Of a stretch of DNA of 64,000 bases, positions 51,051 to 60,043 are shown in pieces. The translations under genes and the position numbers were made by a program. Within the stretch, counting starts at the first letter, position 1. Each line of letters begins with the position of its first letter. The notes beneath the pieces are model-generated. The model saw only the letters and a list, made by a program, of their open reading frames with translations, did no database searches and had not been told where the DNA came from. Origin of the DNA: Weeksella massiliensis (GTDB taxonomy: Bacteria > Bacteroidota > Bacteroidia > Flavobacteriales > Weeksellaceae). The stretch is taken from NCBI GenBank assembly GCA_000751595.1, contig CCMH01000009.1, forward strand, positions 124,001 through 188,000, in the 5' to 3' direction.

Positions 51051-51094
51051 GTAACATTTGTTACGAAGATTTATTAGATGAATCAATATTTTTG
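51051..51094 (+). promoter_or_regulatory. Palindromic operator GTAAC-ATTT-GTTAC with -7 box TATTTTTG 36 nt on (site A)
   Basis: The palindrome (51051-51064) starts exactly 36 nt before the TAnnTTTG box (51087-51094). Its centre is about 42 nt before the expected transcription start, the class II activator position of Crp/Fnr proteins. Same arrangement at 52530, 54257 and 56826. Confidence 0.75.
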
Positions 51095-51130
51095 CAGGAT
51101 TCTTTTTTGATTAATTTTTTATCGAATGGT

Positions 51131-52498
51131 ATGTTGAAAACTTTTCAACTTTTATGCAAATTCCTTTTTTTTAGTTTGTCAATTTTTTCTCAACTCAATG
51201 CGAAAAGTTTAGATTCTATAAGTGTATATTCAACTTTAGAAAATGATTCTATTTCGAAAAATTGGGTAAAAGGACAAGCAAGAAATTATTTTTTAGCGAC
51301 AAATCACCAATACGGAAATGATTATTATACTGATGCTTTAGGTTTACATCTAAACTACGAAACAGAAATTATCCCGAATATTCGAGTAGGAGTTGCTGCA
51401 AACTTTGTTCAACATATTTTTAGTTCTGATTTAGATAAACCTTTTGCTGAAACGACCAACTCGTCAAGATGGGAAAAAGAATTGTACGATGTTCGCCAAC
51501 CTACTAAAAAAAATGCCCTCACACGATTGGATCAGTTTTATATACGTTATCAGACTGAAAATTCTCTTTTACAATATGGCAAAGCTACATTTCCGCACAC
51601 AGTTTTGCTCAACAAAAGCGATGGTAGAATGATGACTTTTAGTTTTCAAGGTGCTTGGTTACAACATCGAAAAGATAATATTTCGATTGATTTTGGTTGG
51701 ATTCATCGTTTTTCTCCACGTTCTATGACCAATTGGTATTCGACTCAAAACACGATAGGTTTGTCGGATAATGGTTATCAGCCAAATGGAAAGCCAGCTA
51801 TTTATAAAGAAAAAATTCCGAGCAAAGGATTGGGTATTGCGCATATTCAAAATAAAACAAAGAATTTTACCTTTGATTATTGGCAATTTCATCTTGATAA
51901 AGTAATGAGTACTTCTTGGCTTCAGGCTGAGTTTTCAAAGGAAAATTGGCTGGTTGGTGGTATATTTTCATATCAAATACCTTTTTCTTATCAAAATAAA
52001 TTAGCTTATAATGAGCGGTATATCCAGTCGAATGAGAAAAGCAAAGTAGCGAGTTTTACATTGGCATATTCAAAAATAAAGTATGGATTTCAGTTTGCAT
52101 ATTCTAAGGCTTTTTCTGGTGGTAGATTTTTGTTTCCGAAAGAGATGGGACGTGACCAGTTTTATACTTCTATGCCGAGAAGTAGGATGGATGGTATGAG
52201 TAATATTGATGTTTTGTCGATGGAGTTTTTTTATAGGATACCAACACTTCATTTTTCTTTGAAAGGCGTATCTACTAAAGGAATATCACCTGAAATTTAT
52301 ACGAACAATAAATATGGTTTAGATGATTATTGGCAATTAAACACAAAAATGGTTTGGGATATTTCACGATCTATTAAAGGATTTCAGCTCGAGTTTTTAC
52401 ATGTATGGAAAATTAATAAAAACGAAAATGATAATATGATTGTCCAACAACGCAGTAATTTTCAGCAATTCAATCTGATTGCTAATTGGTCTTTTTGA
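51131..52498 (+). CDS. Outer-membrane porin, OprD-like
   Basis: 455 aa from ATG 51131, which starts a signal peptide (LLCKFLFFSLSIFSQLNA); the longer frame overlaps the promoter. The mature protein consists of amphipathic strands and long Ser/Asn/Tyr-rich loops and ends in F (LIANWSF). GQARNYFLATNHQYGNDYYTDALGLHLNYE and the FHLDKVMSTSWLQAEFSK-type strands suggest the OprD family of substrate-selective porins; this is a structural impression. The shared operator suggests that it admits a sulfur compound used by the genes downstream. Confidence 0.75.
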   Translation: MLKTFQLLCKFLFFSLSIFSQLNAKSLDSISVYSTLENDSISKNWVKGQARNYFLATNHQYGNDYYTDALGLHLNYETEIIPNIRVGVAANFVQHIFSSDLDKPFAETTNSSRWEKELYDVRQPTKKNALTRLDQFYIRYQTENSLLQYGKATFPHTVLLNKSDGRMMTFSFQGAWLQHRKDNISIDFGWIHRFSPRSMTNWYSTQNTIGLSDNGYQPNGKPAIYKEKIPSKGLGIAHIQNKTKNFTFDYWQFHLDKVMSTSWLQAEFSKENWLVGGIFSYQIPFSYQNKLAYNERYIQSNEKSKVASFTLAYSKIKYGFQFAYSKAFSGGRFLFPKEMGRDQFYTSMPRSRMDGMSNIDVLSMEFFYRIPTLHFSLKGVSTKGISPEIYTNNKYGLDDYWQLNTKMVWDISRSIKGFQLEFLHVWKINKNENDNMIVQQRSNFQQFNLIANWSF

Positions 52499-52529
52499 TT
52501 TATTTCTTTATGTCCGAAAAATCGATTAT

Positions 52530-52573
52530 GTAACCTTTGATACTGTATATGAAAAATGCTTGAGGTATTTTTG
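52530..52573 (+). promoter_or_regulatory. Operator GTAAC-CTTT-GATAC with -7 box TATTTTTG 36 nt on (site D)
   Basis: One mismatch in the right half-site; the -7 box at 52566-52573 is a perfect TAnnTTTG at the same 36-nt offset as site A. About 57 nt of leader follow before the ATG at 52635; the leader also contains the recurrent word core ATCCTACC (52603-52610). Confidence 0.65.
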
Positions 52574-52634
52574 TGAACATGATAGAGGATAAGCAAAGTT
52601 TTATCCTACCTAAAAAAAGAAAAAACAAGTAAAC

Positions 52635-54110
52635 ATGAATAGTAAAATAAATGTACTGAAGAATAAATTTCTTTGGTTTTTGATGGTGGTTTTTCAAACA
52701 CATTGGTTGTTTGCTCAAGCTCCTTTTTTCGAGCGAGTGTACGATGAAACGCTTGCACAAGCGAGTTATGTGATTGCCGATCCCGAAACAAAAGAAGCAA
52801 TTGTCATCGACCCCAAGAGAGATATTGATACTTATTTAACGATTGCAAAAGAAAATAATCTGAAAATTACCCAGATTACCGAAACCCATATTCATGCCGA
52901 TTTTCTCAGCGGATCGCGAGAGTTGCAAGCAGCTACCAAGGCAAAATTATTGCTCTCGAACGAAGGTGGAAAAGATTGGCAATACGAATTTGCTCATGAA
53001 CCTCTGAAAGATGGCGATGTGATAAAAGTAGGGCGTTACACTTTAGAAGTGATGCATACGCCAGGGCACACACCCGAAAGTTTAACTTTTCTTTTGAAAG
53101 GAGGAAAGTTGCAGCCAATTCGCGCGATTACAGGAGATTTTATTTTTGTAGGAGATGTTGGGCGACCAGATTTGTTAGAGAAAGCAGCCGGACAACAAGG
53201 TACGCAAGAAGAAGGGGCCAAACAATTGTTTGCGTCTATTAAGCGTTTTTCTCAATTGCCCAATAATACAGAAATTTGGCCAGGACATGGTGCAGGCTCT
53301 TTTTGTGGAAAAAGTTTGAGTAACATTCCGCAATCGACTTTGGCCGAAGAAAAACAAACAAATGAAGCCTTGAAGATAAAAGAAGAAGCATCTTTTGTTC
53401 GGTATATTTTAGAAGGTCAACCAGAACCTCCAGCGTATTTTGCAGTGATGAAACAACTGAATAAAATTCAACGTCCATTGCTGATCCAAGTGCCAAAACA
53501 TCCTTTCCTTACCAAAGAAGAAGTTGATCGTGCTCGACAAAATAACGTGTTGATTGTAGATACTCGTAAAAAAGAAAACGTACAAAAAGGATTTATTCCA
53601 GGAAGTGTGCATTTCGAAAACGGAAAAATGTTATCGACTTTCATGGGATCGTTGATCAATTATCAACAGCAGTTGTTGATTGTGGCGAAGGAAGAAGAAC
53701 GCGACGATATTACGAGAAAATTGATGCGTATCGGGATGGATAATATTTATGGTTTTGTGTCGGATGTGCATCAACAAAGCTTACCATTGTTGAGCTCGAA
53801 AATTGTCGATATTGATGGATTTAAAAAATACTTGAATCGCTCAGATGTTCAGTTGATAGACGTGCGAACAGAAGGTGAATACAAAGCTGGACATATCAAA
53901 GGATTACAAAATATTCCGTTGAATACAATCGAGCAGAATTTATCCAAAATAGATAAAAAGAAACCCGTAGTTCTTCATTGTCAGAGCGGTGTTCGTGCAG
54001 CAATGGCGTATTCTATCCTTCGAAAAAATGGTTTCGAGAATATTATTAAATATTCGGGCGGGATCAACGATTGGGTAGAAAAAAAGAACGAATTGGTACA
54101 AGAAAAATAA
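52635..54110 (+). CDS. Metallo-beta-lactamase-rhodanese fusion, probable persulfide dioxygenase with signal peptide
   Basis: 491 aa. An N-terminal segment FLWFLMVVFQTHWLFAQ looks like a cleavable signal peptide, unusual for this family. The MBL domain (31-270) has ETHIHADFLSG (His85, His87), HTPGH (His141), GDVGRPD (Asp174) and WPGHG (His218), as in ETHE1-type non-haem iron dioxygenases that oxidise persulfide to sulfite. Two rhodanese domains follow: the first (about 292-380) lacks the catalytic Cys, the second (about 390-485) has Cys449 in HCQSGVRA. Sulfite made here could be removed by the TauE/SafE exporter encoded next. Confidence 0.88.
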   Translation: MNSKINVLKNKFLWFLMVVFQTHWLFAQAPFFERVYDETLAQASYVIADPETKEAIVIDPKRDIDTYLTIAKENNLKITQITETHIHADFLSGSRELQAATKAKLLLSNEGGKDWQYEFAHEPLKDGDVIKVGRYTLEVMHTPGHTPESLTFLLKGGKLQPIRAITGDFIFVGDVGRPDLLEKAAGQQGTQEEGAKQLFASIKRFSQLPNNTEIWPGHGAGSFCGKSLSNIPQSTLAEEKQTNEALKIKEEASFVRYILEGQPEPPAYFAVMKQLNKIQRPLLIQVPKHPFLTKEEVDRARQNNVLIVDTRKKENVQKGFIPGSVHFENGKMLSTFMGSLINYQQQLLIVAKEEERDDITRKLMRIGMDNIYGFVSDVHQQSLPLLSSKIVDIDGFKKYLNRSDVQLIDVRTEGEYKAGHIKGLQNIPLNTIEQNLSKIDKKKPVVLHCQSGVRAAMAYSILRKNGFENIIKYSGGINDWVEKKNELVQEK

Positions 54111-54173
54111 TTTTTCATCAAGCGTTTTGATTGATTATTCAAACGCTAAATTGATTCAATTTATACTTTACAA

Positions 54174-54214
54174 AAAAGGATTTTCGGGTTGAATAGTAAC
54201 CTGAAAATCCTTTT
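54174..54214 (+). terminator. Strong intrinsic terminator of the MBL-rhodanese gene
   Basis: AAAAGGATTTTCGGGTT pairs with AACCTGAAAATCCTTTT (17 bp, one wobble), loop GAATAGT, then T run. Confidence 0.9.
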
Positions 54215-54256
54215 GTTTTTTTAGCGAGATTTCTGCTTTCTCATACCTTTTGTTCT

Positions 54257-54300
54257 GTAACAATTGTTACTGCCTAAAATGACGTTTAGGGCTAATTTTG
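54257..54300 (+). promoter_or_regulatory. Operator GTAAC-AATT-GTTAC with -7 box TAATTTTG 36 nt on (site B)
   Basis: Perfect palindrome (54257-54270), -7 box at 54293-54300. Same offset as sites A and D. Leader to the ATG at 54324 is about 18 nt. Confidence 0.78.
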
Positions 54301-54323
54301 TAGTAATAAAAAAAGCATACAAG

Positions 54324-55130
54324 ATGATAGGAGTAGAAATAATAGGATATATATTAGCTGTTTTAGTAGGAATTTCTCTGGGCCTAATCGGGAGTGGAGG
54401 TTCAATTTTAACGGTACCTATTTTGGTCTACGTTATGGGAGTAAATCCAGTTTTGGCAACAGCCTATTCACTTTTTGTAGTCGGGACAACCTCTTTGGTG
54501 GGGGGAGTGCAAAATGCAATGCAAAAGAAAGTGGATTTCAAAACGGTTTTTATTTTCGGGATTCCTTCCATTGCTGCTGTTTATCTCACCCGCGCTTATC
54601 TTATTCCATACTTGCCCGATGTTCTTTTTCGGATAGGCGATTTTGAGTTTACCAAGTCGATTGGTTTAATGGTTTTGTTTGCTGTTGTGATGATTTTGGC
54701 GTCTATTTCGATGATTCGTCCTTGTCCGCATTGTCAGGATACAAGCGATGGCGAAATAAAATACAATTATCCGATGATTTTGTTAGAAGGTGCCTTGGTC
54801 GGAACCTTAACCGGTTTGGTCGGTGCAGGTGGTGGCTTTTTAATTATTCCGGCTTTGGTTTTGTTGGCGAGAATGCCAATGAAATTAGCTGTCGGTACCT
54901 CGTTATTCATCATCGCAATCAAATCTTTGTTAGGATTTTTAGGAGATATGAACAACGGCGAAGTAATCGATTGGCAACTCCTATCCATCTTTACAGCCTT
55001 ATCGGTTGTAGGAATTTTTATTGGAATTTTCTTATCGAAAAAAATTGCTGGAGATAAACTAAAAACGGCCTTTGGATGGTTCGTTCTCGTGATGGGAGTT
55101 TACATTTTAGTTAAAGAGTTATTTTTATAA
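54324..55130 (+). CDS. TauE/SafE-family sulfite/sulfur exporter
   Basis: 268 aa from ATG 54324 (MIGVEIIGYILAVLVGISLGLIGSGGSILTVPILVY); an upstream TTG frame overlaps operator B and is rejected. Eight or so transmembrane helices in two repeats, each with the GLIGSGGSxL / GLVGAGGGFLIIPALV signature. A cytoplasmic or periplasmic loop carries a Cys pair (RPCPHCQD). The family exports sulfite, sulfoacetate or thiosulfate; the neighbours favour sulfite/thiosulfate. Followed in order by rhodanese, two small membrane proteins and thioredoxin. Confidence 0.9.
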   Translation: MIGVEIIGYILAVLVGISLGLIGSGGSILTVPILVYVMGVNPVLATAYSLFVVGTTSLVGGVQNAMQKKVDFKTVFIFGIPSIAAVYLTRAYLIPYLPDVLFRIGDFEFTKSIGLMVLFAVVMILASISMIRPCPHCQDTSDGEIKYNYPMILLEGALVGTLTGLVGAGGGFLIIPALVLLARMPMKLAVGTSLFIIAIKSLLGFLGDMNNGEVIDWQLLSIFTALSVVGIFIGIFLSKKIAGDKLKTAFGWFVLVMGVYILVKELFL

Positions 55131-55150
55131 TCATACCAAAAAAAGAAAAT

Positions 55151-55480
55151 ATGTTTGGTTGGATGAACCGCTTATTGGGTAAAAAAAATAGAGAATTAGA
55201 AAACGCTTTGATGGCAAATCCGTATTTGGTCGATGTACGATCGGAAGCTGAGTTTGCCAACGGAAGTGTAGAAGGTGCCGTGAATATTTCGCTCGATAAA
55301 TTAACGACACAACTCAAAACCTTGCGTCAGCATTCGTGTATTGTTGTGTTTTGTAGAAGTGGTTTCCGAAGTGGAATGGCCAAAAAAGTTCTTCAACAAA
55401 AAGGGATTTCGGCTGTTATCAACGGAGGAAGATGGGAAAACGTTCAGCGCACAAAGCAATCCTTAAACCTAAAATCATAA
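55151..55480 (+). CDS. Single-domain rhodanese
   Basis: 109 aa. LVDVRSEAEFANGSVEGAVNISLDKL and the active-site loop VVFCRSGFRSGMA (Cys68) followed by NGGRWENV. It carries sulfane sulfur as a Cys-persulfide. There is no signal peptide, so it is cytoplasmic. 20 nt after the exporter gene, 3 nt before the next gene. Confidence 0.92.
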   Translation: MFGWMNRLLGKKNRELENALMANPYLVDVRSEAEFANGSVEGAVNISLDKLTTQLKTLRQHSCIVVFCRSGFRSGMAKKVLQQKGISAVINGGRWENVQRTKQSLNLKS

Positions 55481-55483
55481 ACC

Positions 55484-55738
55484 ATGAGAACACAAATTTT
55501 CGGTTGGAATTTTATGAGAATCCTACGCTTAGTATTAGGAATGCTCATCATTCTACAAGCCATTTTTGCACAAACGTGGATTTTTATCTTTTTCGGATTG
55601 TTTCTCGTTTATACGGCTGTGAAAAACATTGGATGTTGCGGAATGAATGCGTGTGGTTTACCCGAAACCAAAAATAAAACCAATCTAGAAAAGGTGGTTT
55701 TTGAAGAAATAAAACTAAAAAATCATGATGAAAAATAA
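55484..55738 (+). CDS. YgaP/DUF2892-like small membrane protein with Cys cluster
   Basis: 84 aa. Two hydrophobic helices (MRILRLVLGMLIILQAIF and WIFIFFGLFLVYTAVKNI) followed by GCCGMNACG, a compact Cys motif, and a charged tail. The two-helix part resembles the YgaP-type transmembrane domain often fused to rhodanese; here it is a separate gene right after one. Its end overlaps the next gene by 14 nt. Confidence 0.78.
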   Translation: MRTQIFGWNFMRILRLVLGMLIILQAIFAQTWIFIFFGLFLVYTAVKNIGCCGMNACGLPETKNKTNLEKVVFEEIKLKNHDEK

Positions 55739-55931
55739 AAAAATGCTCCTTTTCGGAGTTGCTTTCGGAGCGTTGGTAGGATTTCTTTATTGGAATTTTA
55801 TTGGCTGTACAACCGGAACTTGCGCAATCACTTCCAGTCCGATTAATAGTACAATTTACGGATCGTTGATGGGCGGATTATTATTTTCATCGTGGAAGAA
55901 AAATAACAACAATAAAAAAGAAGAATTATGA
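55725..55931 (+). CDS. DUF6132-type small membrane protein
   Basis: 68 aa. Two helices around [32 protein letters not shown]; the GCxxGTCxITSxP motif is the mark of DUF6132. It recurs in Bacteroidota sulfur and thioredoxin clusters; function unknown. A Lys/Asn tail ends it. Overlaps the thioredoxin gene by 4 nt. A start one codon later (55728) is equally possible. Confidence 0.82.
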
Positions 55932-56221
55932 CATTTCAAGAAATTATCAATCAAGACAAGCCGGTCCTTGTCGATTTTTTTGCCGAGTGGTGTGGTCCTT
56001 GTAAAATGCAAGCGCCAATTTTAGATGAGCTGAAAGAACGCGTTGGTGATGCCGCGAGTATCGTGAAAATCGACGTAGATCAGAATCGTCCTTTGGCAAC
56101 AGAATATCAGATTCGCAGTGTGCCGACCTTGGCAATTTTCAAACAAGGAAAAGTTATGTGGCGACAATCAGGCGTTTTTCCGGCTGATGATTTAGAACGA
56201 TTAATCAACGAAAATCTATAA
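55928..56221 (+). CDS. trxA: Thioredoxin
   Basis: 97 aa. [20 protein letters not shown] (Cys22, Cys25) and the cis-Pro loop SVPTLAIFK. No signal peptide, so a cytoplasmic reductant, here probably for the persulfide on the neighbouring rhodanese. Last gene of the tauE operon. Confidence 0.92.
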
Positions 56222-56227
56222 ACCCCA

Positions 56228-56261
56228 AAAAGCTCGAATCGTATTTTTGATTCGAGCTTTT
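56228..56261. terminator. Intrinsic terminator between trxA and doxX
   Basis: AAAAGCTCGAATC and GATTCGAGCTTTT, 13-bp perfect stem, 8-nt loop, T run; bidirectional. Confidence 0.9.
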
Positions 56262-56288
56262 ATTTTTTAATCTTTATTTATTGGTTGG

Positions 56289-56314
56289 ATAGGATGAATT
56301 TTATCCTACCGAAA
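56289..56314. repeat. Inverted pair of the recurrent word
   Basis: TAGGATGAATTTTATCCTACCGAAAT-type arrangement: the word and its inverted core form a 6-bp stem. It lies just past the doxX stop. Confidence 0.65.
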
Positions 56315-56316
56315 TA

Positions 56317-56724
56317 TTATCGATGATAGAGATTGTACGCTTTTGGATTGTTGAGAATAAAAAATAATAATCCTCCGAAAATTGCAATATTTTTCCATAA
56401 CGGACCATGAAGAAATCCGTTTCCGAATTGGATGGTAATCGTGATCGGAATAAGCAACACAAAAAGTGCAGTTGCCGAAAAACGAGTGAAAACACCCAAC
56501 AGAAAAGTTACGCCAAAAAGAATAAGAGCATAACCCGAAAGAATACCTAATAAATGTGGATCGCCAAAAAACTCAGCAAAACCACTGTTGCTTGCGTTAT
56601 TTATACGTTTGGTTACACCGTCGGGATTCACGAGGTGAGAAATGCCGGCGACAATAAAAATGCCGCTGACTGCTGCGCGCAAAAGAAAGATTGACAAGTC
56701 TGAGATTTGATTCTGTTTTTCCAT
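56317..56724 (-). CDS. DoxX-family membrane protein
   Basis: 135 aa, four helices, with LLRAAVSGIFIVAGISHLVNPDGVTKRI at the start and PLWKNIAIFGGLLFFIL at the end. DoxX proteins take part in thiosulfate:quinone oxidation in Acidianus and in thiol/oxidative stress complexes elsewhere. Here the promoter carries the same GTAAC-N4-GTTAC site as the sulfur genes, which ties it to them despite being on the other strand. Confidence 0.88.
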   Translation of the reverse strand: MEKQNQISDLSIFLLRAAVSGIFIVAGISHLVNPDGVTKRINNASNSGFAEFFGDPHLLGILSGYALILFGVTFLLGVFTRFSATALFVLLIPITITIQFGNGFLHGPLWKNIAIFGGLLFFILNNPKAYNLYHR

Positions 56725-56782
56725 TTATGTATTAATTATTAATATTTTTTACGTGTGTTTCAATATGAAAAGTAATAATAAA

Positions 56783-56826
56783 TAAAAATATAGGAATGTT
56801 TTTGAGCTTATTGTAACTATTGTTAC
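56783..56826 (-). promoter_or_regulatory. Operator GTAAC-AATA-GTTAC with -7-like box TATTTTTA 36 nt on (site C)
   Basis: Perfect palindrome at 56813-56826 with extra TT/AA flank pairs. Read on the minus strand, the box at 56783-56790 is one base off TAnnTTTG and lies at the same 36-nt offset as the three plus-strand sites. It points to doxX. Confidence 0.7.
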
Positions 56827-57657: not shown

Positions 57658-58440
57658 ATGAAACAACTTATATCTATATTATTAATAACTTTTACAAATT
57701 GCGTATTTGCGCAGGTTGGTATTAATACTGATCATCCACATGAGAATTCATCTTTACATGTGGTAACTCCAACAAATAAATCTATACTCTTGCCTTCAGT
57801 AGATGGTATACAGAATGCCGTAAATCCAGTAAATGATTTGGATTTCCAGGGGGCAATTATTTATGATAAAAAGACCAATACAATTTATGAGCATGATGGT
57901 CAAAGGTGGAATAGTGTATACAATTTCGAGGTTGATCTTAAAAAAGAATACTTAGCTCATTTTACTCGTAAATATAAAGATGTAAACTGTACTGGATCAA
58001 ATTGTGTTGGAGAAGCATTACTACCCTGGACTAACAATGGAACATTTGATTTTATTGGTGATAATATTAATGTATCGCTGAAGGATGAGAACACTATCAA
58101 AATACATGAAAAAGGTTTATATCGAATTTCTTATCGAACATATGCAAGAAGATCAGGTAAAAATACTACTGACATATTCACTTTTTTAGAAAGATCAACT
58201 GAAGGAACAGAGTGGTATATAATTCAGGAGTCCTCTTATGGGAAGAATGAAGATAATGATGGATTCAAGCCTGTTTTACAAGGAGTAATTGTTATGCAAT
58301 TAGGGGCAAATGACTTATTGAGAGTTCGTGCAACAATGAAGGCAGGAATTACAGGGTTATGGCAAACTTCGAATGCACTATTTGAAGATAGACAAACCTA
58401 TGGTATAGGCGAGTTTATGATAGAAAAAATCAACCTTTAA
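57658..58440 (+). CDS. Secreted jelly-roll (C1q/TNF-like) protein, paralogue 1
   Basis: 260 aa. Signal peptide (LLITFTNCVFAQ) followed by VGINTDHPHENSSLHV, a flavobacterial opening seen before C1q-like domains. A conserved linker (SILLPSV... GAIIYDKKTNTIYEHDGQRWNSV) and a C-terminal domain of about 150 residues starting at a Cys pair (CTGSNC), with strand pattern NTIKIHEKGLYRISYRTYARRSG and DLLRVRATM. Best read as a TNF/C1q-like jelly roll; assignment by pattern. No T9SS C-terminal signal is evident. Confidence 0.65.
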   Translation: MKQLISILLITFTNCVFAQVGINTDHPHENSSLHVVTPTNKSILLPSVDGIQNAVNPVNDLDFQGAIIYDKKTNTIYEHDGQRWNSVYNFEVDLKKEYLAHFTRKYKDVNCTGSNCVGEALLPWTNNGTFDFIGDNINVSLKDENTIKIHEKGLYRISYRTYARRSGKNTTDIFTFLERSTEGTEWYIIQESSYGKNEDNDGFKPVLQGVIVMQLGANDLLRVRATMKAGITGLWQTSNALFEDRQTYGIGEFMIEKINL

Positions 58441-58449
58441 ATTTAAATT

Positions 58450-59286
58450 ATGAAAAATATTTTAATAGTTATTTTAATACATATAAATGGCTTAATTGTT
58501 TTTGGACAAGGAACAATTAATTTAGATAACACAACGGCAAATCCACATAAAAATGCTATTTTAGATATTAAAGCTGACTCAAAAGGAGTTATATTCCCAA
58601 AAGTTGCAGATATTACTAAATTCCCTTTTTATAATAAGAATGCAGAAGACTTATTTGATGATAAAGCAGAAGCTTCTGGGTCTATAATATTTAACCAAGA
58701 GGATAAACAGTATTATAAATACAATGGAAAAACATGGGTTACTGCAAAACAATTAGCGGGCTTTGATAATCCTCATTTATCAAGAATAAAAAATAATGGT
58801 ACAGTAAGTTTTAGATGTGTTTTGGGTATAGGAAGTTGTGCTCCACAATTAATTCCCTTAACAAATACTGTTAATATATCTCAGTTATTGGTTAATAATC
58901 TTGCTGTACCGACAGTAAATAATATTATAACTATAAAAGAAGACGGAATATATAATGTAGCAGGAGTAATTGGTTTCGAGGGGACTAGTGTTTTATCGCT
59001 TGGTCAAGATATTATTTATAGGGCTTATATAGAGGTTCAGTACCCAGGTTCTGATGAATGGATGACATTGGCTTTTAAGGAAACTGCACAGTTCGGTGGA
59101 TTGTTTGTTGATTTTGGTCAATCTGGAAATAAAAGCGCAAGTGTAACTACAACAGCAAATCTTGTTGCAAATACTAAAATTAGAATGGGAACCCTAGCTA
59201 AAGTTAAAGGTGTTAGCTTTGTAAGTACTTATACAACTGTTGGTTCTCATACAGAAACATTTATAAATATTACTAAAATTAAATAA
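58450..59286 (+). CDS. Secreted jelly-roll (C1q/TNF-like) protein, paralogue 2
   Basis: 278 aa. Same layout as its neighbours: signal peptide (GLIVFGQ), GTINLDNTTANPHKNAILDIKADSKGVIFPKV, the linker GSIIFNQEDKQYYKYNGKTWVTA, then the Cys pair (CVLGIGSC) and the jelly-roll-like segment TVNNIITIKEDGIYNVAGVIGFEGTSVLSLG with NLVANTKIRMGTLAKVKG. 9 nt after paralogue 1 and 7 nt before paralogue 3. Confidence 0.65.
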   Translation: MKNILIVILIHINGLIVFGQGTINLDNTTANPHKNAILDIKADSKGVIFPKVADITKFPFYNKNAEDLFDDKAEASGSIIFNQEDKQYYKYNGKTWVTAKQLAGFDNPHLSRIKNNGTVSFRCVLGIGSCAPQLIPLTNTVNISQLLVNNLAVPTVNNIITIKEDGIYNVAGVIGFEGTSVLSLGQDIIYRAYIEVQYPGSDEWMTLAFKETAQFGGLFVDFGQSGNKSASVTTTANLVANTKIRMGTLAKVKGVSFVSTYTTVGSHTETFINITKIK

Positions 59287-59293
59287 TTGCGAA

Positions 59294-60043
59294 ATGAAAA
59301 ATATTTTATTAATGATATTGTTATTTTGCACAAATAACATATTTGCTCAAGTTGTAATCGGAAAAGACACTCCAAAAACTAATAATTCTGAATTAGAGTT
59401 AATCAGTACTGATGGTCAAAAGGCATTAATCTTACCAAAAACTAATGACCGTACTACTTTACCTAAATATAAAGTAACAGAGGTGGATTCTTATACAGAT
59501 GATCCTTCAATGGAAGGAATGTTATTATATAACAAAGCAGAGAAAAAGGTAAAAGTTTATGATGGTAAAAAATGGGAAAATGCTTTTGATGATAGTCCTA
59601 AAGTACACACTATTACAAGGATGAAAATGGTACCTGAGACTATAGTTTGCGCTTTGGGAATTTGTGGTTCAAATGAAATAAAATTTTCATCAGGCGGAGA
59701 AAATTTCTCTGATCATTTAAATATCCAAACAGCTAGTGATACATTTACTATTAAGCAAAAAGGAGTTTATCGTATAAATGTAAATATAGGATTTTCAGGT
59801 TTTTCACTTTTAGGACAAAATATAAAAATAGCTATAAGTGTTAATGGAAATGCAAGGACATACATGTCAAAAAGTCCAAAACTTTTTAGTAGCGATACAT
59901 ATGTTGCAGGAGACGAGGTTGTACTCTACCTAAATACAGGAGATCAAGTGAAGATAAAAATGACTTTAGGTACCTCTATAGCGGCAGGCTTTAAATATGG
60001 AGAAAACGATTATAGTAATATTACATTCGAAAGATTATTATAA
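59294..60043 (+). CDS. Secreted jelly-roll (C1q/TNF-like) protein, paralogue 3
   Basis: 249 aa. Signal peptide (LLFCTNNIFAQ), NSELELISTDGQKALILPKTNDRTTLP, linker GMLLYNKAEKKVKVYDGKKWENA, Cys pair (CALGIC) and the domain ASDTFTIKQKGVYRINVNIGFSGFSLLGQNIKIAISVNG ... LNTGDQVKIKMTLGTS. The G-V-Y-R-I-N and N-T-G-D-Q-V-K-I strands fit the C1q family best of the three. A strong terminator follows. Confidence 0.68.
   Translation: MKNILLMILLFCTNNIFAQVVIGKDTPKTNNSELELISTDGQKALILPKTNDRTTLPKYKVTEVDSYTDDPSMEGMLLYNKAEKKVKVYDGKKWENAFDDSPKVHTITRMKMVPETIVCALGICGSNEIKFSSGGENFSDHLNIQTASDTFTIKQKGVYRINVNIGFSGFSLLGQNIKIAISVNGNARTYMSKSPKLFSSDTYVAGDEVVLYLNTGDQVKIKMTLGTSIAAGFKYGENDYSNITFERLL

Follow-up and report, generated by a model that had tools for sequence, protein, structure and literature searches.

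Palindromes and genes in the window

The window analysed here is a 64-kb stretch of the genome of Weeksella massiliensis (G000; positions 124001-188000 of contig C9; the whole genome is 2.56 Mb in 54 contigs). It contains four palindromes of the type GTAACN4GTTAC, which lie upstream of genes including those for a persulfide dioxygenase-type fusion, a TauE family protein and a DoxX family protein, and which are probably the operators of a Crp/Fnr-family regulator, here called P0001. Site 1 (GTAACATTTGTTAC, 51051-51064, plus strand) lies upstream of a gene for a porin-like outer-membrane protein (51131-52498, plus strand; the likely start is the ATG at 51131 within an open reading frame (ORF) of 51092-52498), and its -7 box TATTTTTG (51087-51094, plus strand) begins 36 nt past the first base of the palindrome. 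Site 2 (GTAACCTTTGATAC, 52530-52543, plus strand), which has one mismatch, is followed by the same box TATTTTTG (52566-52573, plus strand) and by a gene for an MBL-fold/rhodanese fusion of the persulfide dioxygenase-sulfurtransferase type with a leader-like N-terminus (52635-54110, plus strand). Site 3 (GTAACAATTGTTAC, 54257-54270, plus strand) and its box TAATTTTG (54293-54300, plus strand) precede a run of plus-strand genes, which encode a TauE/SafE family membrane protein (54324-55130; PF01925 by Pfam), a single-domain rhodanese (55151-55480), a small membrane protein with a weak likeness to the YgaP transmembrane domain that scores below the Pfam cut-off (55484-55738), a DUF6132 small membrane protein (55725-55931), and a thioredoxin (55928-56221). 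Site 4 (GTAACAATAGTTAC as read on the minus strand, 56813-56826) lies upstream of the minus-strand gene for the DoxX family protein (56317-56724), and its box TATTTTTA, with one mismatch, occupies 56783-56790 and reads from 56790 downwards. Sites 2 and 3 are kept in the sister species G424.

The four palindromes had been noticed in a sequence-only reading of the window, and both a direct sequence check and a search with the offset-36 pattern found them again. As had been claimed, the distance from the first palindrome base to the first base of the TANNTTTG-type -7 box is exactly 36 nt at all four sites, and a scan allowing 0 or 1 mismatch detected no further copy of the palindrome in the 64-kb window. 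The label 'porin' in that reading was weakly founded, since the protein had no match in Pfam, NCBIfam or PDB searches; a relative of it in G236 likewise has a site.

Genome-wide scan

The genome was scanned, as the sequence-only reading had proposed, with a composite pattern consisting of the palindrome, 22 free bases, and TANNTTTG. Three matches were perfect, three had one mismatch, and three had two. The six matches at 0-1 mismatch (0 for the backward control) are the four window sites, a site at C16:66178 upstream of a 146-residue DsrE-like protein whose Pfam scores are just below the cut-offs, and a site at C5:27387 upstream of a second MBL-rhodanese fusion. Among the two-mismatch matches, the one at C14:168109 lies upstream of two YeeE/YedE-type genes followed by the Crp/Fnr gene of P0001. 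The scan thus added three sites, which gives at least seven promoters in total. Judging from the base composition, 64 kb should contain 0.07 exact palindromes, and the 2.56-Mb genome 0.003 exact pairs of palindrome and box, of which it has three.

The two-mismatch match at C54:8223 was set aside because it falls within an ORF. The remaining one, C16:59548, sits in a packed stretch of genes and was also set aside, although it is not disproved as a site.

A candidate regulator encoded outside the window

A Crp/Fnr family regulator acting from outside the window had been predicted, and P0001 on contig C14 fits this prediction. Its gene is the third of an operon, after the two YeeE/YedE-type genes, so that a Crp/Fnr gene with a site of its own, which had also been sought, is present; this site is kept in G424. 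An automated tally gives 0 sites near P0001 because its own site has two mismatches. P0001 is a member of the Crp/Fnr superfamily, with the cNMP_binding and Crp-type helix-turn-helix domains above the curated cut-offs (scores, with cut-offs in parentheses: PF00027, 40.6 (27.5); PF13545, 42.4 (27); PF00325, 23 (21)). A predicted model of its Sphingobacterium nematocida ortholog has the Crp fold, and a fold search with this model returned FNR, CRP, Vfr, and other members of the superfamily, none of which was singled out.

In an alignment of 22 rows, R183, S187, R188, and C78 are invariant and V184 is nearly so. Profile alignment to E. coli CRP placed R183, V184, and R188 of P0001 opposite R180, E181, and R185 of CRP, where we take the aligned R, E, and R to be residues 180, 181, and 185. 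Work of the 1980s reportedly found that CRP with Val at position 181 prefers A:T at the matching half-site position. Rodionov et al. (PMC1274295) name 180 and 181 as the specificity positions of the Crp/Fnr family. The R180/V181-equivalent residues of P0001 fit the GTAA half-site. In a tree of 89 rows, which was built without L053 (a copy of P0001) and without HcpR2 proteins, the V181 label needs 3 changes versus a mean of 24.4 for shuffled labels, and P0001 groups with Sphingobacterium and Paenimyroides proteins. For this tree, and for the scan of all half-sites described below, loci longer than 12 kb were reduced to their middle part.

By PF13545 the genome has two Crp/Fnr genes, that of P0001 and that of P0002 on contig C16. 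The end of the P0002 gene is about 0.9 kb from an exact site, which could point to P0002 as the regulator. However, its recognition helix reads TATESAIR and lacks the R180 and V181 pattern, none of the composite matches in the genome is upstream of its gene, and across genomes the motif tracks P0001-like proteins. It is thus very improbable that P0002 serves the palindromes, and P0001 is their likely regulator.

A CPxC-motif DUF983 gene lies directly 5' of the regulator gene in several genomes (L066:1097-1486 and L325) and shares the site of the regulator. Porphyromonas loveana has a close relative of P0001 (L159:10001-10627, ~59% identical), within 10 kb of which there is no sulfur gene of the reference set and no composite site.

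Conservation across Bacteroidota

Within the order, the exact composite was found 61 times in 31 of 246 genomes, while the backward control gave 1 match. All 31 site-bearing genomes carry a P0001-like protein at E <= 2.4e-44. When the threshold was set at E <= 1e-44, exact sites were present in 30 of the 69 genomes with such a protein versus 1 of the 177 without, and the single exception has its P0001-like protein at 2.4e-44. Six genomes with P0001-like matches at E <= 1e-55 have no exact site, but each of them has a regulator-adjacent site with at most one palindrome mismatch and at most one box mismatch. Many other site-less genomes examined bear paralogs of the E181 type. Of the 198 genomes of the phylum sample, 17 had the exact composite, with 31 occurrences in all and none for the control, and all 17 have a P0001-like match at E <= 4.7e-41.

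The genus was represented by three genomes. The regulator of the sister species G424 is 98% identical to P0001, and this genome keeps the sites upstream of tauE, both MBL-rhodanese genes, dsrE, and the yeeE operon. At these five shared promoters the motif positions are identical at 80 of 80, whereas the spacer positions are identical at 75 of 110, a comparison that is partly biased because this very pattern had served to detect four of the five sister sites. The regulator of the third genome, G423, is 70% identical to P0001.

Promoter offset and half-site specificity

The surroundings of P0001 relatives were analysed in 80 named loci (1.38 Mb) out of at least 585 related stretches. GTAACN4GTTAC was found 121 times in 60 of the 80 loci, whereas each of the 59 other anagram half-sites occurred at most 9 times. 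Among 242 palindrome readings in both orientations, TANNTTTG was present at offset 36 in 50 and at any other offset between 16 and 69 at most once, with 0.19 expected. Of the boxes near the expected place, 50 of 51 were at offset 36, and the neighbouring offsets 35 and 39 had one each. A motif lying at random distances from promoters would have spoken against a regulon, and the box at offset 36 around the regulator relatives shows no such scatter. Chance as the source of the motif was rejected on three kinds of control, namely other offsets, anagram half-sites, and the backward pattern.

According to a published study (PMC9723704), the box of Flavobacterium psychrophilum covers -12 to -5. Because of this, the palindrome would cover -48 to -35 and be centred on -41.5. 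This position relative to the predicted transcription start matches class II promoters, had been proposed for the window sites, and is well supported by the fixed offset and the box position.

When all 1024 half-sites were scanned as perfect 5-4-5 palindromes near R180-V181 regulators, only GTAAC emerged at +36, with 15 sites in 13 of 56 loci; the next best half-site had 1. Near E181 paralogs, 2 of 29 loci had GTGACN4GTCAC at +36, with 2 perfect sites in all. In L247 and L248, perfect sites of this kind with the box at +36 adjoin regulator paralogs of the E181 type, and this only suggestive pairing hints at co-evolved sister regulons.

Target genes

For labelling, up to three or four ORFs downstream of each site were considered and the first that had a BLAST match was taken, so that a few labels may name the second gene. 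In these target tallies, and in the search for mismatched sites beside the regulators, identical 44-mers were counted once. The 61 exact sites of the order serve 18 MBL-rhodanese fusions, 13 outer-membrane efflux proteins, 4 TauE, 3 SulP, 3 rhodanese, and 2 porin-like proteins, and one each of DsrE, YeeE, sulfide:quinone oxidoreductase (SQR), thioredoxin, DUF983, DUF6132, a YgaP-like protein, a small protein upstream of DoxX, CydA, a fatty-acid hydroxylase, and a haem-domain protein. The script left 7 of the 61 open, among them the tauE site of the window; since this site was missed through the script's choice of start codon, six are truly open.

Sites near the regulator, 133 in 66 of the 80 named loci, form a biased sample because these loci were chosen for nearness to the regulator. 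They serve 36 MBL-rhodanese fusions, 26 TauE proteins, 11 SQR, 8 efflux proteins, 7 regulator genes, 7 haem-domain proteins, and 6 YeeE proteins, with 15 unassigned and at most 3 for each other target. A sulfur gene is near the regulator in 68 of the 80 loci, some of whose contigs are short. Nine sites were found outside the order, and the eight examined, in six genomes, precede three MBL-rhodanese fusions, TauE, DUF983 followed by the regulator, an efflux protein, YeeE, and one membrane protein, which has no BLAST match and is TauE-like by eye. The sulfur theme proposed for the regulon thus holds, as most targets in the genome and its relatives are sulfur genes.

The SQR-type target has PDB matches to human mitochondrial SQOR, and the identities of the SulP, efflux protein, Mo-oxidase, CydA, and peroxiredoxin targets are supported by Pfam. 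With one SQR type as the query, the W. massiliensis genome itself gave a weak match (29% identity, E 4.7e-6).

The genome encodes two MBL-rhodanese fusions downstream of such sites: that at 52635-54110 in the window has a leader-like N-terminus and is probably exported, and that at L050:3460-4854 has no leader. This suggests a paired oxidation of persulfide on either side of the inner membrane. Efflux-protein targets are found in L069, L086, L090, L093, L095, L096, L100, L102, and L109; PF02321 was detected in the three tested, and the others are alike by sequence. Their cargo is perhaps a sulfur compound.

Proposed mechanism

We propose, with a probability of about 0.8, that P0001, a Crp/Fnr protein, activates genes for the metabolism of sulfide, persulfide, and thiosulfate from a class II position and also acts on its own operon. 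The palindromes would be its operators. A P0001 dimer would bind GTAACNNNNGTTAC-like DNA whose centre lies at about -41.5, where it would replace the -33 region and assist RNA polymerase; as the P0001 operon is under its own site, this would create an autoregulatory loop. The sites, their offset and conservation, the gene content, the co-occurrence of the regulator, and the fit of the recognition helix are read directly from the genomes, and from them we infer binding, activation rather than repression, and autoregulation by P0001. The controlled set is expected to import, oxidise, hand on, and export sulfur: in W. massiliensis by YeeE-type transport, persulfide oxidation by MBL-rhodanese proteins, sulfur transfer by rhodanese, DsrE-like protein, and thioredoxin, and export by TauE, and in relatives presumably also by SQR, SulP, a molybdenum sulfite-oxidase-like enzyme, and cytochrome bd.

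The regulator could instead be a repressor that is bound at -41.5 and keeps RNA polymerase out until it is released by an effector. In favour of this, the site overlaps the -33 region, and the known persulfide regulators CstR and SqrR do repress until their effector releases them. However, a single invariant spacing is what contact with the polymerase needs, and NtcA, a member of the same superfamily, activates from about -41.5. Repression is thus improbable.

Several observations weigh against P0001 as a sulfur-gene activator acting through these sites. The clearest is that a scan of G423 at 0-1 mismatch gave no composite match; a perfect palindrome precedes its yeeE genes, but there is no box at offset 36. 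Conservation in related species, whose lack would have refuted the regulon, was seen at the five operons shared with G424 but not among composite sites of G423. The site of the P0001 operon departs from the pattern by two mismatches, and the E181-type protein of L063 adjoins two perfect GTAAC sites. As to targets, 13 of the 61 sites in the order serve the efflux protein, which has no obvious sulfur role, and 6 are unassigned, while in 12 of the 80 named loci the regulator has no sulfur gene nearby (again with some short contigs).

A separate caution concerns looser matches. Without the box, the palindrome at up to one mismatch shows no enrichment genome-wide (85 per strand versus 142 for the backward control), nor does the composite at up to three mismatches in the W. 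massiliensis genome (41 versus 76). Because of this lack of enrichment, such loose matches were not counted as sites, and the claim rests on the strict class of 0-1 mismatch since looser patterns drown in chance.

Possible signal

P0001 has only two cysteines, C78 and C84. Equivalents of both were found in 30 of 30 named orthologs, and C78 was found in 22 of 22 rows of another set; C84 is absent in a few orthologs, which counts against a role of the pair. In the profile alignment the stretch with the two cysteines lies opposite the phosphate-binding segment of CRP, which contacts cAMP. In the ortholog model the cysteine segment (residues 81-90) is predicted with low confidence; for this reason no sulfur-sulfur distance is claimed. 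The sequence position of the cysteines suggests a thiol or persulfide sensor.

A more speculative step of the mechanism is that the signal is persulfide or polysulfide read by C78 and C84. In a Crp/Fnr activator whose cyclic-nucleotide pocket has turned into a thiol sensor, the two cysteines would take up sulfane sulfur, and the dimer would thereby become able to activate from the class II position at GTAACN4GTTAC sites. This is a tentative proposal, somewhat short of an even chance. If true, P0001 would exemplify a persulfide sensor of the Crp/Fnr type that serves as a main sulfide regulator in the class, for a response widespread in Bacteroidota. It is also possible, if rather doubtful, that the same regulator responds at the same sites to oxygen, NO, peroxide, or a small ligand, and that the sulfur genes belong to a redox or respiratory response. 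Signals of this kind are sensed by well-known Crp/Fnr proteins, and among the genes behind sites in relatives are also those for cytochrome bd subunit I, a peroxiredoxin, and a haem-domain protein. The recurrent targets, however, are sulfur genes; the retention of C78 and C84 in the named orthologs favours thiol chemistry, but fits thiol sensing of oxidants equally.

Comparison with known regulators

The sequence-only reading had compared the half-site with HcpR sites, and the likeness is exact at the level of DNA: according to Rodionov et al. (PMC1274295), HcpR2 has the consensus GTAACnnnnGTTAC, identical to that of P0001, together with R180 and Pro at 181. The two proteins share the superfamily and R180, and on this ground the sites could form an HcpR-type nitrosative stress regulon. 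They differ in residue 181, which is Val in P0001, and in their targets, hcp for HcpR2 versus sulfur genes. No hcp gene (PF03063) was detected in the W. massiliensis genome, and the 47 of the 198 sampled genomes with a PF03063 match are all members of the phylum outside its order and class. Both the lack of hcp in this genome and the different residue 181 led to the rejection of P0001 as an HcpR, and a nitrosative stress regulon is most unlikely. Among five Crp/Fnr proteins examined from 12 hcp-bearing genomes, none was of the P181 type.

P0001 resembles CRP, Vfr, and other class II Crp activators in fold, helix-turn-helix, and a site centre at about -41.5, whereas it has V181 instead of the E181 of CRP and A:T instead of G:C in the half-site. 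Its score with the NCBIfam CRP equivalog was 56.5 bits against a cut-off of 266, and an identity as the cAMP receptor was rejected. Because the CRP stretch GDFIGELGLFEEGQERSA aligns with an GDTCAMTMACSLGERQSK-like sequence in the profile alignment, the generally known cAMP contacts of the phosphate-binding segment are not kept in P0001. FNR, the 4Fe-4S protein, is marked by an N-terminal cysteine cluster; P0001, with C78 and C84 alone, lacks this pattern and was rejected as FNR.

Sulfide and persulfide genes are regulated by CstR (Staphylococcus cst operon), SqrR/BigR, and FisR, which belong to the CsoR, ArsR, and sigma-54 activator families, respectively. P0001 shares their target functions, namely MBL-rhodanese, TauE, rhodanese, and SQR, but not their protein families, being a Crp/Fnr protein with a class II site. 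A search limited to an open-access library found no described regulator of sulfide, persulfide, or thiosulfate metabolism in Bacteroidota. The present analysis names a candidate regulator, operator, and promoter position for this metabolism, with a gene set that is testable in any cultured relative. It would add a Val case to the published rule that links residues 180 and 181 of Crp/Fnr proteins with half-site letters, and it raises the possibility that two cysteines, located where CRP has its cAMP pocket, sense sulfur.

Elsewhere in the window, 57658-60043 encodes three successive secreted-looking proteins of 249-278 residues that are alike at their beginnings and may be paralogs.

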